Origin: a virus
Length of the DNA: 64,000 nt
Strand: one strand, 5' to 3'
IMG/VR virus record: IMGVR_UViG_3300008262_006986
Coordinates: 1 to 64,000 of that record
Under the pieces are notes generated by a model. It saw only the letters and a list, made by a program, of their open reading frames with translations. It did no database searches and was not told where the DNA came from. Both the position numbers and the translations under genes were made by a program. Below, piece by piece: positions 46,012 through 49,919 of this stretch. Numbering within the stretch: position 1 is the first letter of the stretch; every line of letters begins with the position of its first letter.

Positions 46012-46836
46012 ATGCAAGAAAATATGACATTTATGGAATGGCTTGGTGTCCCCCCGGAACAAATGTTCGGTTTTGTGGGAAATTTCGGACCAAAAGCAAC
46101 TGAAAAAACAAAAGTTTATTCCGAAGAGCCTTTGGAACCGCTACAAGTGTCTCTCATTTTAGACGAATTAGGATGGCTCGGATCAATTAATAATAAAAAG
46201 CCTCAAAGATTGTTCGAAAATGTTATGAGCTACGGAGATGTTGCAGACAGAATGCAAGTTGTTGTATCTCCATATGGCTCTCTTAAAATTATATTAAGAA
46301 AAGTCGCAACCACTTTGGAGGGAAGCTACATACCACTTTGTTATTCAATATATCCACTTATTAATGATTATAATCATAATGGAGAAAATGATGATCATAT
46401 TGAAAATATGATAGCAAATAAAATTGCAGATAAGCTTAATGAAATGGATAAAAGAATGATGTTAGGTGGAGAACGAAATTTTGAAGGCACCAGAGAATTG
46501 GTTTTAGAAATGGCTCAACATGTGAGAGCAAATCATCCTAGGTGTATGCACTTTGAGGGTGTAATTCAAAATGGAGAAAATGATTACACAATATACTTGC
46601 AATATAATGGACAAGGTGTTGAGGCCCCATCTGCCAAAAGAGTTGAGCAGTTTGATATACATCTGAATTACGATAAGGATACTGGATTGATTCGTTGCTG
46701 GGCTAATGAAATTACTAGTCCTACAAGACAACATCTTTGGCAAGTCCAACCTAGTGAATGGGATGAATACTTTTCTCCTAAACAAAAAAATAGTGAGATT
46801 GTTGAGTGTATAATGAACGCTCTATATACCTATTAA
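46012..46836 (+). CDS. Uncharacterised protein
   Basis: 274 aa. It begins MQENMTFMEWLGVPPEQMFG; a second start at 46024 (MTFMEW) has a weak AAGAAAA upstream. It has an alpha/beta body (MQVVVSPYGSLKIILRKVAT; DYTIYLQYNGQGVEAPSAKR) and an acidic C-terminus. No family is recognised. The first start is also without an SD and sits next to CATAATAT. Divergent from the small late gene at 45991. Confidence 0.6.
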   Translation: MQENMTFMEWLGVPPEQMFGFVGNFGPKATEKTKVYSEEPLEPLQVSLILDELGWLGSINNKKPQRLFENVMSYGDVADRMQVVVSPYGSLKIILRKVATTLEGSYIPLCYSIYPLINDYNHNGENDDHIENMIANKIADKLNEMDKRMMLGGERNFEGTRELVLEMAQHVRANHPRCMHFEGVIQNGENDYTIYLQYNGQGVEAPSAKRVEQFDIHLNYDKDTGLIRCWANEITSPTRQHLWQVQPSEWDEYFSPKQKNSEIVECIMNALYTY

Positions 46837-47516
46837 AATTCAAAACCAAAATACTTATTGTACATATCTGATAATTCTTTGATGTCAAAGTCTTTTAGGT
46901 TTTCTATGTTCGATAGGTCTATTATATCAGTTCTTATTTGATCAGGTAATTTCTGAATCCATTTCGAGCAAAAAACATATAATGGACTTATTTTTTTAAG
47001 TATGACAAACCTCAAAATATTTGGAGATTCTTTAATATAATTTTCTAAAGAAACATCTTCTTTTAATAAATCTTTTATTGTACGCAGAGTAAGTTCAAAT
47101 TCACTAACCACATTGGCTTCGAGATGAGCATAAGCTACTTTTGTAGTTTGCCTTTTTTCCTTAATTAATTTTTTCCACACAGCCCATCGGGCCTTTGCTT
47201 TATCTCCATGCAACAATGAGGGATCAACAAGTATACGATGGCCTTCTTTTTGGAGTTTGTGTGCTATTTCTAGTTGTGCTCTCATATACAGAACAAATTG
47301 AAAACCACTCAATGTTTCTTTGTTTGCTTTGACAAACTTCAACATATGTTTGAAAACAATACTTTTTCGAATATCTCCTTTTTTTGCTACCCTTGGGTGG
47401 CAATAATTTGGTAAAATCTTTCTTGTTAATTCAATCCATTGACAACAAAGTTGGTAGGCAAGAATCTCATCTTGATTGAGTCCTAGTTCCAGAGCCATAT
47501 GTGGGTCGTATTTCAT
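46833..47516 (-). CDS. Uncharacterised helical protein
   Basis: 227 aa, starting MKYDPHMALELGLNQDEILA. It has conserved-looking aromatic and Cys positions (YQLCCQWIELTRKILPNYCH; VFCSKWIQKLPDQIRTD). Helical throughout. No family is recognised. It interlocks stop codons with the convergent gene by 4 nt. It lies just before the gene-free RNA interval, pointing away from it. Confidence 0.6.
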   Translation of the reverse strand: MKYDPHMALELGLNQDEILAYQLCCQWIELTRKILPNYCHPRVAKKGDIRKSIVFKHMLKFVKANKETLSGFQFVLYMRAQLEIAHKLQKEGHRILVDPSLLHGDKAKARWAVWKKLIKEKRQTTKVAYAHLEANVVSEFELTLRTIKDLLKEDVSLENYIKESPNILRFVILKKISPLYVFCSKWIQKLPDQIRTDIIDLSNIENLKDFDIKELSDMYNKYFGFEF

Positions 47517-47532
47517 ACTTCCAAGTTTACAC

Positions 47533-47562
47533 TTTACAAAATGTTTGGCAATAGACTATAAT
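47533..47562 (+). promoter_or_regulatory. Sigma70-type promoter of the gene-free interval
   Basis: TTTACA (47533-47538), 18-bp spacer, TATAAT (47557-47562). The -10 is perfect and the -35 has one mismatch to TTGACA. The predicted start is about 47569. It is among the best sigma70-like promoters in the window and is not followed by a start codon for ~470 nt. Confidence 0.65.
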
Positions 47563-47568
47563 GCATTT

Positions 47569-47935
47569 GTGATTCAAGTAGGGTGAAGTGTCAACCCAAA
47601 CGATGATCATTTTAAAAATTGAAAGAAGTGAATTTGTTAAAAATTCTATTCAATTGATTTTTAAAATCAAAACCTGTCGGAGCGGTACTCCCTGCTAAGC
47701 CCATTAGGTAATACGGGAACCTAATGACCGACTTGAAGACAAGGTGAGCCTGTGCTTCGCCAAAAACGGCAGGCAGTAATTAGTCTAACTAATTACAGGG
47801 GTGCAGGTTAAGCGTCTTAAAATCGACACATTAAACCAAGACTAAGTTTATATACTTAGCAATAAGGTTTAAGTAGCTGTGAGAAAACTTATTTAAGTTT
47901 TTTTTCTCACACCTCCTTAAGCCTGCCCCCCGGTT
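47569..47935 (+). ncRNA. Candidate structured non-coding RNA or long structured leader
   Basis: No plausible ORF lies in 47517-48036. Stems read by eye: TTTTAAAAAT 47610-47619 / 47657-47666; AACCT 47671-47675 / AGGTT 47805-47809 enclosing a multi-branch region; GTCGG 47676-47680 / CCGAC 47728-47732; CATTAGGT 47702-47709 / 47719-47726; GGTGAG 47743-47748 / CTTCGCC 47755-47761; GTAATTAGT 47776-47784 / 47788-47796 (9 bp, perfect); CTAAGT 47842-47847 / 47854-47859; AGGTTTAAG 47865-47873 / CTTAAGCCT 47916-47924 enclosing GTGAG-AAAACTT 47879-47890 with its complement. Loop and stem bases of the 9-bp hairpin could also pair with AGACTAA near 47840. GC content of the core exceeds the flanks. It could instead be the leader of the polymerase mRNA. 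Confidence 0.6.
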
Positions 47936-48036
47936 TGGTTTTATTTTTAAATGATTTATAATAAGCCAAATTTTAGTTTGTTTTATTGTGCCGTTTTTGT
48001 ATGCTTATTGGATTCCCTTCTTTATAGGAATATTCC

Positions 48037-49365
48037 ATGATTGACTTGGAAGCCTTATGCGCTGAGTTTTTAAGTGTTGGTTCCAAAGAGCCTATTTTAT
48101 TTTTAGACTGGTCCCCTTCTGATCCTGATTCAACTACCTTGGTTAATTTGGCCCTTAAAATTCGTTTACAGAGCATTTCTGGCTATAGTCGTACTCTGGA
48201 CCTGAATTCGGAAAATTCCTTTTCTATTCTGCGTTTAATCGAGTCTGTTTTTTCTTCTAAGAAAATTTTTATACTTGGATATAATTTTAAATCTTTATTT
48301 TCTTATTATCGTCGTGTCTGTCGATCTGAACTGGTTTTGACTAATGTAATTGATCTTTTTTGGTACGAGTCTTATAGGTCAATTGAATCTAGTAAGGGTA
48401 ATATGAATTTGGGCTTATCTAATTTTAAATCTCTGATAAAAGATGCAGAAACATACAAGCTATATTCAAGTTACTATCGTGATTTAATAAGCAAAGTTGT
48501 TCCATTCATGGAATCTTTTCCTATATTGAATGATGATACTGGAACTATAGTCTATAGTAATTATAACATTGAGGGGCAAGAGAATGGGAGGCTCTCATGT
48601 TCTTGCAATAAGAAGAATGTTTTCAATCCACATTCTTTAGGAGAAGAGAAGAAAAATCTTTTATTTTATAGTTCGAATTACAAGTATTTTATGCAATTCG
48701 ACTATCGGAACATGGAAGTTGCGGTTTTGGCTGAATTGTCTGAAGACTCCGAGCTTCTTGATATTGTAAAGTCTCCTGATAATAATGTATATTCAAAGAT
48801 ATTTGAAAAGGTTACTGGGGTAAAGAATCACGAAGATGCAAAAAATTTGGGTAAAAAAATATTTCTCCCGCTTATATATGGGCAGACCAAGAATGGCCTA
48901 TCTAAGTCATTAGACATATCAATAGATCAGGCAGAAATATATTTTAATAACGCCAAAAAATACTTCAAGAAAAGTTTTGATTATGTTGAAGCTGCACAAA
49001 ATGAGGCTTCTTCTAAGGGTTATCTTGAAGACTGTTTCAGGAGAAAAAGATATTTCATAGATGGGGAATCATATAAGGCAAGGAATTTTATAATACAATC
49101 TCCTTCTGCTTTAATTTGTTTGGAATCGTTGTTAAAATTGTATAGAGAAGCTCAAGATATTTTCGCTGTTGCGTTTCATGTGCATGACGGATATTTCTTG
49201 GCAATTAAGAAAGACAGTATACAGGAAGCTTTTTATAGTGCAAAAAAAGCTCTTGAAGGTAAGTTGAACCTGATGCCAAATTTACAGTTAAAAACAACTG
49301 CAAAGTTGGGAAAAACGCTGGATAAAATGGTTTTACTTGAGAAAAGAAAAGAAGGTGTAATTTGA
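48037..49365 (+). CDS. Family A DNA polymerase, compact
   Basis: 442 aa with SD AGGA 8 nt upstream. The N-terminal ~110 residues look like a degenerate 3'-5' exonuclease (LFLDWSPSDPDSTTL lacks the DxE; ILGYNFKSLFSYYRR resembles the GHNxKxD region). Polymerase motifs follow: NGRLSCS (pre-A), FMQFDYRNMEVAVLAELS (A), LGKKIFLPLIYGQTKNGLSK (B) and FHVHDGYFLAI (C). Motif C has HDG where HDE is usual. T4 uses a family B polymerase, so this replisome differs. It overlaps the next gene by 4 nt. Confidence 0.85.
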   Translation: MIDLEALCAEFLSVGSKEPILFLDWSPSDPDSTTLVNLALKIRLQSISGYSRTLDLNSENSFSILRLIESVFSSKKIFILGYNFKSLFSYYRRVCRSELVLTNVIDLFWYESYRSIESSKGNMNLGLSNFKSLIKDAETYKLYSSYYRDLISKVVPFMESFPILNDDTGTIVYSNYNIEGQENGRLSCSCNKKNVFNPHSLGEEKKNLLFYSSNYKYFMQFDYRNMEVAVLAELSEDSELLDIVKSPDNNVYSKIFEKVTGVKNHEDAKNLGKKIFLPLIYGQTKNGLSKSLDISIDQAEIYFNNAKKYFKKSFDYVEAAQNEASSKGYLEDCFRRKRYFIDGESYKARNFIIQSPSALICLESLLKLYREAQDIFAVAFHVHDGYFLAIKKDSIQEAFYSAKKALEGKLNLMPNLQLKTTAKLGKTLDKMVLLEKRKEGVI

Positions 49366-49919
49366 GTTCAATATATTTAAATTTTCCGATCACATCTGAA
49401 GAGTATAAAAGTCTCGAAAAGAAATTTGGCCAGTTGTGTTATTATGCTGCATGGCAGTTAACCCGCAAGAACTCCAATAATAATCATCAATGTGATCTGG
49501 ATGATTTTCAACAGGAATTAATGCTTGCGGTACTTCGTGCTGGCTCATATTACAAGAGGCAAGTTTATATTGATAGTAGTTTTTCTGCTTTATTTGATAG
49601 CAAGATGGATAAAGTTGCCAGAATGGTTTTGGAAGAATTGTTTGATTTATGGAAGAATCGTACTCGTCACGGCGCTAATCGGCAAAAATTTGGAGATCAT
49701 CAAGAGAAAATTTTGGACAATTTGTGCGAATGCTATTTACGAGACTTCAGAATTCCTGATAAAAAAAGAGAATTGATTTTTGATGCCAAGTTTTTTACCT
49801 ATTGCAAACAAATAGTATGGAATGCACAGAGAAACCTTGGTAAAAAGATTACTAGGGAAAAGCCGATCCGAAGTGGTCAAGTAAGTTTGTCCGATCATGA
49901 TTATCTTGTTTATGGGTGA
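49362..49919 (+). CDS. Sigma-70-like protein (second sigma-type factor)
   Basis: 185 aa from a TTG start that overlaps the polymerase stop; SD AAGG is 6 nt upstream. CDLDDFQQELMLAVLRAGSY resembles region 2.1-2.2 of small sigma factors, and DAKFFTYCKQIVWNAQRNLG region 2.4. The tail REKPIRSGQVSLSDHDYL also fits ECF-like proteins. It is distinct from the gp55-like protein at 23641. It may be a sigma for replication-region genes or an inactive relative. Confidence 0.5.
   Translation: MSSIYLNFPITSEEYKSLEKKFGQLCYYAAWQLTRKNSNNNHQCDLDDFQQELMLAVLRAGSYYKRQVYIDSSFSALFDSKMDKVARMVLEELFDLWKNRTRHGANRQKFGDHQEKILDNLCECYLRDFRIPDKKRELIFDAKFFTYCKQIVWNAQRNLGKKITREKPIRSGQVSLSDHDYLVYG

Follow-up and report, generated by a model that had tools for sequence, protein, structure and literature searches.

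A putative noncoding RNA with three pseudoknots upstream of a family-A DNA polymerase gene in uncultured phages, and its possible link to replication initiation

A gene-free interval upstream of polA

The DNA analysed here (the window) is the first 64,000 nucleotides of the IMG/VR virus record IMGVR_UViG_3300008262_006986. Its only ORF-free stretch longer than 400 bp is an interval of 520 bp (47517-48036), which extends from the start of a minus-strand gene for a 227-aa protein to the start of the plus-strand gene for a family-A DNA polymerase (polA) (Table 1). An earlier note, made from the sequence alone, had read this interval as gene-free, with a TTTACA-N18-TATAAT promoter, a GC-richer core between AT-rich flanks and a position directly upstream of a DNA polymerase operon. 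All of these readings are borne out. The GC content is 49% in the core (47668-47815) and 25-37% in its surroundings. The interval has no ORFs, and none is conserved across it in the relatives on either strand; a translated conserved ORF, which the note had named as a finding that would refute its proposal of a structured RNA, is thus absent.

A sigma70 promoter ends 9-17 nt 5' of the conserved AGTA/H1 in 8/8 near relatives (Fisher p 8e-8). Support for a promoter of polA's own within the spacer is only weak (p 0.0015). Some 370 nt separate the promoter from the AT-rich spacer between the proposed RNA and polA. In 26 loci, the GC content of this spacer has its median at the 9th percentile of local windows. 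The RNA would be about 370 nt long in the window and roughly 330-460 nt in the relatives; in the absence of RNA data, its start is inferred from the promoter and its end from the last paired segment that is conserved.

Table 1. Features of the polA locus in the window. Counts are the reshufflings as good as the matched partners, in 8 near relatives (per 20000) and in a second, distant group of 10 (per 50000).
Feature	Position	Strand	Near relatives	Second group	Remarks
Conserved neighbour, 227 aa, function unknown, helical	46833..47516	-			no PDB match
sigma70 promoter of the RNA	47533..47562	+			TTTACA 47533-47538, N18, TATAAT 47557-47562; 11/12 consensus matches
Proposed RNA extent, about 370 nt	47569..47938	+			limits of conservation/covariation; no RNA data
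Hairpin H1, GGGT/ACCC	47581..47597	+	271		relatives TGGT/ACCA, AGGC/GCCT
PK1 5' strand GTGTC (H1 loop)	47588..47592	+	33		partner 47825-47829; relatives TTGTC/GACAA, TTAAC/GTTAA
AT-rich peripheral hairpin	47609..47667	+			differs between relatives
Conserved AAACC segment	47670..47674	+			GAAAAAC(C/T)-like, common to groups, by eye
Helix H3, GTCGG 47676-47680 / CCGAC 47728-47732	47676..47732	+	2		
Hairpin H4, CATTAGG/CCTAATG	47702..47726	+	3	1	PK2 5' strand in loop; 4/8 pairs changed on both sides
PK2 5' strand CGGG (H4 loop)	47714..47717	+	51	16	partner 47929-47932; 0/100000 in 23 contigs
Conserved AGGTGAGCC	47742-47750	+			H7 5' strand sits at its end
H7 5' strand CCTGTGC	47749..47755	+	0	2	
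Long-range helix H5, 5' strand GGCAGGC	47768..47774	+	5	21	
Hairpin H6	47776..47796	+			by eye, pairing kept in relatives despite other sequence
H7 3' strand GTGCAGG	47801..47807	+			same test as H7 5' strand
PK1 3' strand GACAC	47825..47829	+			tested with 47588-47592
Hairpin H8, CTAAG/CTTAG	47842..47859	+			variable
Helix H9, TTAAG/CTTAA	47869..47920	+			variable arm beside H5; relatives TTCAAG/CTTGAA, CCAAG/CTTGG by eye
H5 3' strand GCCTGCC	47921..47927	+			tested with 47768-47774
PK2 3' strand CCCG + conserved GT	47929..47934	+			23-contig permutation; sequence-blind detector
AT-rich spacer between RNA and polA	47935..48036	.			25% GC
Family-A DNA polymerase (polA), 442 aa	48037..49365	+			PF00476 E 8e-32; directly downstream of RNA

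A conserved fold with three pseudoknots

Folded as RNA, the interval reaches -140.7 kcal/mol versus -107.9 +/- 6.0 kcal/mol for dinucleotide shuffles (z -5.52; 0/100 shuffles equal it), and so passes the comparison with shuffled sequence that the earlier note had proposed. Nine homologous regions, including that of the window, give z values from -2.6 to -8.6. Their antisense strands give similar values, so that folding energy alone cannot assign the strand.

Covariation in homologues, also proposed there as a check, is strong, and every helix tested is supported (Table 1). When longer stretches were aligned with MAFFT, several helices came out in the wrong place; we used anchored permutation tests, in which matched partners are compared with reshuffled ones in fixed windows set from sequence motifs, and no covariance model. 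On an independent alignment of H3 and H4, 7/13 pairs are changed on both sides (0/500 shuffles as high). PK2 is formed by CGGG/CCCG, CTGG/CCAG, CGAG/CTCG and CAAG/CTTG pairs across 23 contigs; some selection is left in this test because the hairpins were chosen by eye. A sequence-blind detector found the hairpin, PK2 and H5 together in 31/62 loci where 3.9 were expected, with few evident false matches (L030, L031, L053, L117) and with none in the two clades that lack the RNA (see below).

The GTCGG/CCGAC stem that had been read by eye is correct and covaries (H3). Its companion, the AACCT/AGGTT closing pair, stands in part: AACC/GGTT is invariant in the near relatives, and the fifth pair fails. 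The counterpart in the L118/L132 group is AACT/AGTT by eye, and the GG of the AACC/GGTT pair overlaps the better-supported H7. Since the 5' strand of H5 is enclosed by H7, H5 crosses H7 and forms a pseudoknot; with PK1 and PK2, which tie hairpin loops to distant segments, this makes three. The predicted RNA thus has at least seven helices and three pseudoknots that are kept through compensatory changes, and we regard its reality as close to certain. In the H9 arm, CCTCCTTA (window 47912-47919) resembles the 16S rRNA 3' end and is absent from most relatives.

Comparison with known RNA classes

Searches of the window and of 12 relatives against Rfam 15 gave no family above the gathering threshold other than unrelated tRNAs. 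Weak matches in the interval are microRNA-like and fall on one AT-rich hairpin. The GOLLD, ROOL and OLE models gave nothing in the interval at E values up to 10, and nothing at the gathering threshold in the window and the 12 relatives; RNase P, 6S, SRP, group I intron and riboswitch models likewise do not match the interval. Neither ARAGORN nor Rfam detected a tRNA or tmRNA domain, and there are no tRNA genes in the window or the remainder of its 109-kb contig. The helix order also does not match the topologies of group I introns, HDV-like ribozymes or RNase P. Retron-like coupling and a diversity-generating retroelement were rejected because no reverse transcriptase was found: five genomes lack RVT_1, and the adjacent polymerase is of family A. 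A nucleotide search of phage records returned chance matches only, and the RNA is not described in the literature searched, which mostly left out subscription papers.

The earlier note's view of a complex structured RNA belonging to no known class, and being neither GOLLD nor ROOL, is thus upheld by the Rfam, tRNA and tmRNA results, and by covariation, folding and the lack of a conserved ORF. Judged from sequence, this is a new class of phage noncoding RNA, with its transcription inferred. Its three pseudoknots, its clade-wide spread, the second polymerase and the skew switch described below had no place in that note. GOLLD and ROOL are likewise large phage RNAs with elaborate folds and no known function (PMC12286853), but the present RNA is shorter and is tied to polA rather than to tRNA islands; GOLLD and ROOL are often near tRNAs (PMC12286853). 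OLE shares large size and an intricate, conserved structure with the present RNA, but is about 600 nt long and mostly found in Bacillota (PMC12054373).

Distribution in a clade of uncultured phages

We gathered loci from IMG/VR using the polymerase, a 185-aa neighbour and a DnaB-like helicase as baits. The phages concerned are uncultured and form a large family, with a 381-kb genome among its members. We surveyed 62 distinct polA loci; in most of them, polA is preceded by a gap of about 400-1000 bp without ORFs. Two clades lack the RNA. In one (L014, L016, L050, L054 and LR756511), there is no gap and polA directly follows another plus-strand gene. In the other (ten loci), the gap is occupied by long inverted repeats. 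Such repeats stand in place of the RNA upstream of polA in L062, L064, L067, L068, L070, L072, L073, L076 and L013; they consist of TTGGCACGG..TTTGCTTCGTGCG and its complement, enclosing hairpins such as CTCTGAGCGAAGCGAAGAG, and possibly represent a mobile element or another type of origin.

Each RNA-less clade forms one group in the polymerase tree. Among the assigned loci, RNA presence requires only two changes on this tree, and the RNA therefore looks ancestral; 13/62 gaps could be assigned neither as RNA nor as RNA-less. Long noncoding gaps unassigned to the RNA lie upstream of polA in L107, L111, L119, L104 and L043, and those of L107, L111 and L119 share a well-conserved sequence of their own.

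Because the bait searches were anchored on these genes, we also ran a scan with DNA motifs only. It gave 24 matches, 3 by chance and 21 to the RNA. A family-A polA lies 378-484 nt downstream in 18 of the latter, and the other three reach the end of the sequence. A scan of genome contigs for the 185-aa neighbour turned up no relatives.

Polymerases and neighbouring genes

The catalytic D, K and D residues of PolA are invariant in the 62 loci. The 185-aa protein (window 49362-49919) is highly conserved in the clade, helical and, by eye, slightly similar to sigma factors. It has no Pfam or PDB match, and a PDB structure search with the 227-aa neighbour was also empty.

A DnaE-type polymerase is encoded as well in 12 of the 18 genomes searched, including the contig of the window, and PolA therefore need not be the main replicase. 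DnaE is usually split into two genes, with the break at about the same point in most clade genomes where it was found. On the G000 contig the parts lie at 81317-81631 and 84851-85351 (L154, L155), and the DnaE of G010 is unsplit (1379 aa). Visual inspection of the break in the contig of the window showed no intein. These phages also carry UvsX-, Dda- and UvsW-like genes and a DnaB-like helicase. No phage RNase H1 was found in 10 genomes, so that priming from an RNA would need a host or other nuclease. Near its end (107366-108789), the G000 contig has a second long region without ORFs, about 1.4 kb in size.

Strand skew at the RNA

Raw cumulative GC skew tracks gene direction and is uninformative for this reason. 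We used a coding-corrected GC3 skew, in which the coding strand is regressed out at third codon positions. On the RNA strand this skew rises across the RNA in 9/11 genomes (positive side term; Fisher p 5e-6), and the best upward switch is no more than 4 kb from the RNA in 6/11 genomes, where 0.57 would be expected. These figures include G002, which was taken in by synteny; it has an ORF-free gap without a recognisable RNA and without similarity to its sister L034. When G002 is excluded, Fisher p is 9e-5 and the best switch is near the RNA in 5 of the 10 genomes whose RNA is recognised, against an expectation of about 0.5. The result is robust to gene-length filters, and TA skew agrees more weakly.

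In the genome of the window, the best switch is at 30 kb, 18 kb from the RNA at 47.7 kb (p 0.27), which is only weakly consistent. The best switch misses the RNA also in G001 and G011, and no skew support comes from G006 and G022, where the RNA is at most about 10 kb away from the end of a contig. There is no significant switch at polA in the few genomes available from the gap-less clade (p 0.97 and 0.71) and the inverted-repeat clade (p 0.14, 0.55 and 0.37). The direction of the switch fits an RNA of leading-strand polarity with regard to the downstream fork. We consider it probable that a replication origin coincides with the RNA or adjoins it; that the switch marks an origin in use is inferred. 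The flip of strand bias there in several genomes suggests that the RNA may help to start viral DNA copying.

A possible role in replication initiation

The anatomy of the locus (promoter, folded RNA, AT-rich spacer, Pol I-type polymerase and DnaB-like helicase) fits an RNA-primed scheme. In our best explanation, the RNA would be transcribed from its own sigma70 promoter toward polA, and the transcript would fold into a core with three pseudoknots and help to open an origin in the AT-rich spacer 3' of it. It may also serve as a pre-primer or as a loading platform for leading-strand synthesis, perhaps extended initially by the adjacent phage PolA, with the DnaE-type polymerase and the DnaB helicase taking over later. 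Transcription, the RNA end and the priming steps are all inferred, and as a whole we hold this explanation only tentatively, with doubt slightly outweighing belief. The same hesitation applies to the primer role taken by itself, which falls a little short of being an even call. The hybrid of ColE1 requires a G-rich RNA tract, but the 3' tract of the predicted RNA is C-rich and is not conserved in other groups; AT-richness before genes, moreover, is common.

The RNA might instead be a cis-acting leader, which would form the 5' segment of the mRNA of the polA operon and regulate its expression. It could do so, for instance, by binding the polymerase, an autogenous control of the kind known for T4 gene 43, or some other protein of the phage. 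The RNA invariably precedes polA and shares its strand, a promoter precedes the RNA in turn, no terminator was found between the RNA and polA in the window, and the RNA is missing from the clade in which polA directly trails another plus-strand gene. Because the promoter of polA's own is weakly supported, such a role is not excluded. We nevertheless think it rather unlikely: a variable distance, mostly of 60-160 nt, separates the conserved structure from the start codon, the ribosome-binding site is not reached, three pseudoknots in 330-460 nt would be a lot for a leader, and the skew switch is left unexplained.

The skew switch is equally unexplained by a trans-acting ornate RNA or RNP of the GOLLD, ROOL or OLE kind, with a structural or host-takeover role and with its placement due to a stable replication module. 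An own promoter and an elaborate conserved fold are what such an RNA would have, and abundant large phage noncoding RNAs are known, for example a ~800-nt ICP1 transcript (PMC7567579). The strict placement before polA across very divergent phages speaks against it, as does the frequent location of GOLLD and ROOL near tRNAs instead (PMC12286853), and we judge it to be no more probable than a minor possibility. A DNA-only origin, in which proteins recognise the hairpins in the DNA itself and the RNA is incidental, would accommodate the equally strong antisense folding and the sister clade with long inverted repeats at the same place. However, the loop-to-3'-end and long-range pairings covary over 150-400 nt, which fits RNA, and one strand retains a promoter at a constant distance; we find this reading very improbable.

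The origin RNA that we favour would work in the mode of ColE1 RNA II (PMC5043065, PMC11012335) or the T4 oriF transcript (PMC3016281), both of which start replication as leading-strand primers. Like the phage RNA as we infer it, ColE1 RNA II is a structured noncoding RNA of several hundred nucleotides that is made from its own promoter shortly before an origin, with leading-strand polarity and a tie to a Pol I-type polymerase (PMC5043065, PMC11012335). No sequence relation to it is shown; the phage RNA has another fold with three conserved pseudoknots, the phage encodes the polymerase next to the RNA, and priming in the phage is inferred. The R-loop origins oriF and oriG of T4 have a phage promoter, a transcript, an AT-rich unwinding region and leading-strand priming, to which the promoter, the predicted RNA, the spacer and its proposed role would correspond, but about 100 bp suffice in T4 (PMC3016281), with no conserved RNA structure. 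The UvsX-, Dda- and UvsW-like genes are a further likeness to T4. The T4 polymerase belongs to family B.

Phages have so far yielded few large structured RNAs, and the best examples (GOLLD and ROOL) lack a known function, whereas this RNA is paired with a conserved gene in the genome and its location suggests a function that is testable. As a new RNA family it lends itself to structural study, and it can mark a little-known clade of phages, one of which has a 381-kb genome. That these DnaE-bearing phages use a dedicated pseudoknotted origin RNA with a co-encoded small Pol I, the primer fold being the conserved part, is a speculative and somewhat unlikely proposal; if true, it would represent a viral RNA-primed replicon. 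If the RNA is an origin RNA, it would mean that phages evolve complex RNA folds that control the start of DNA replication.
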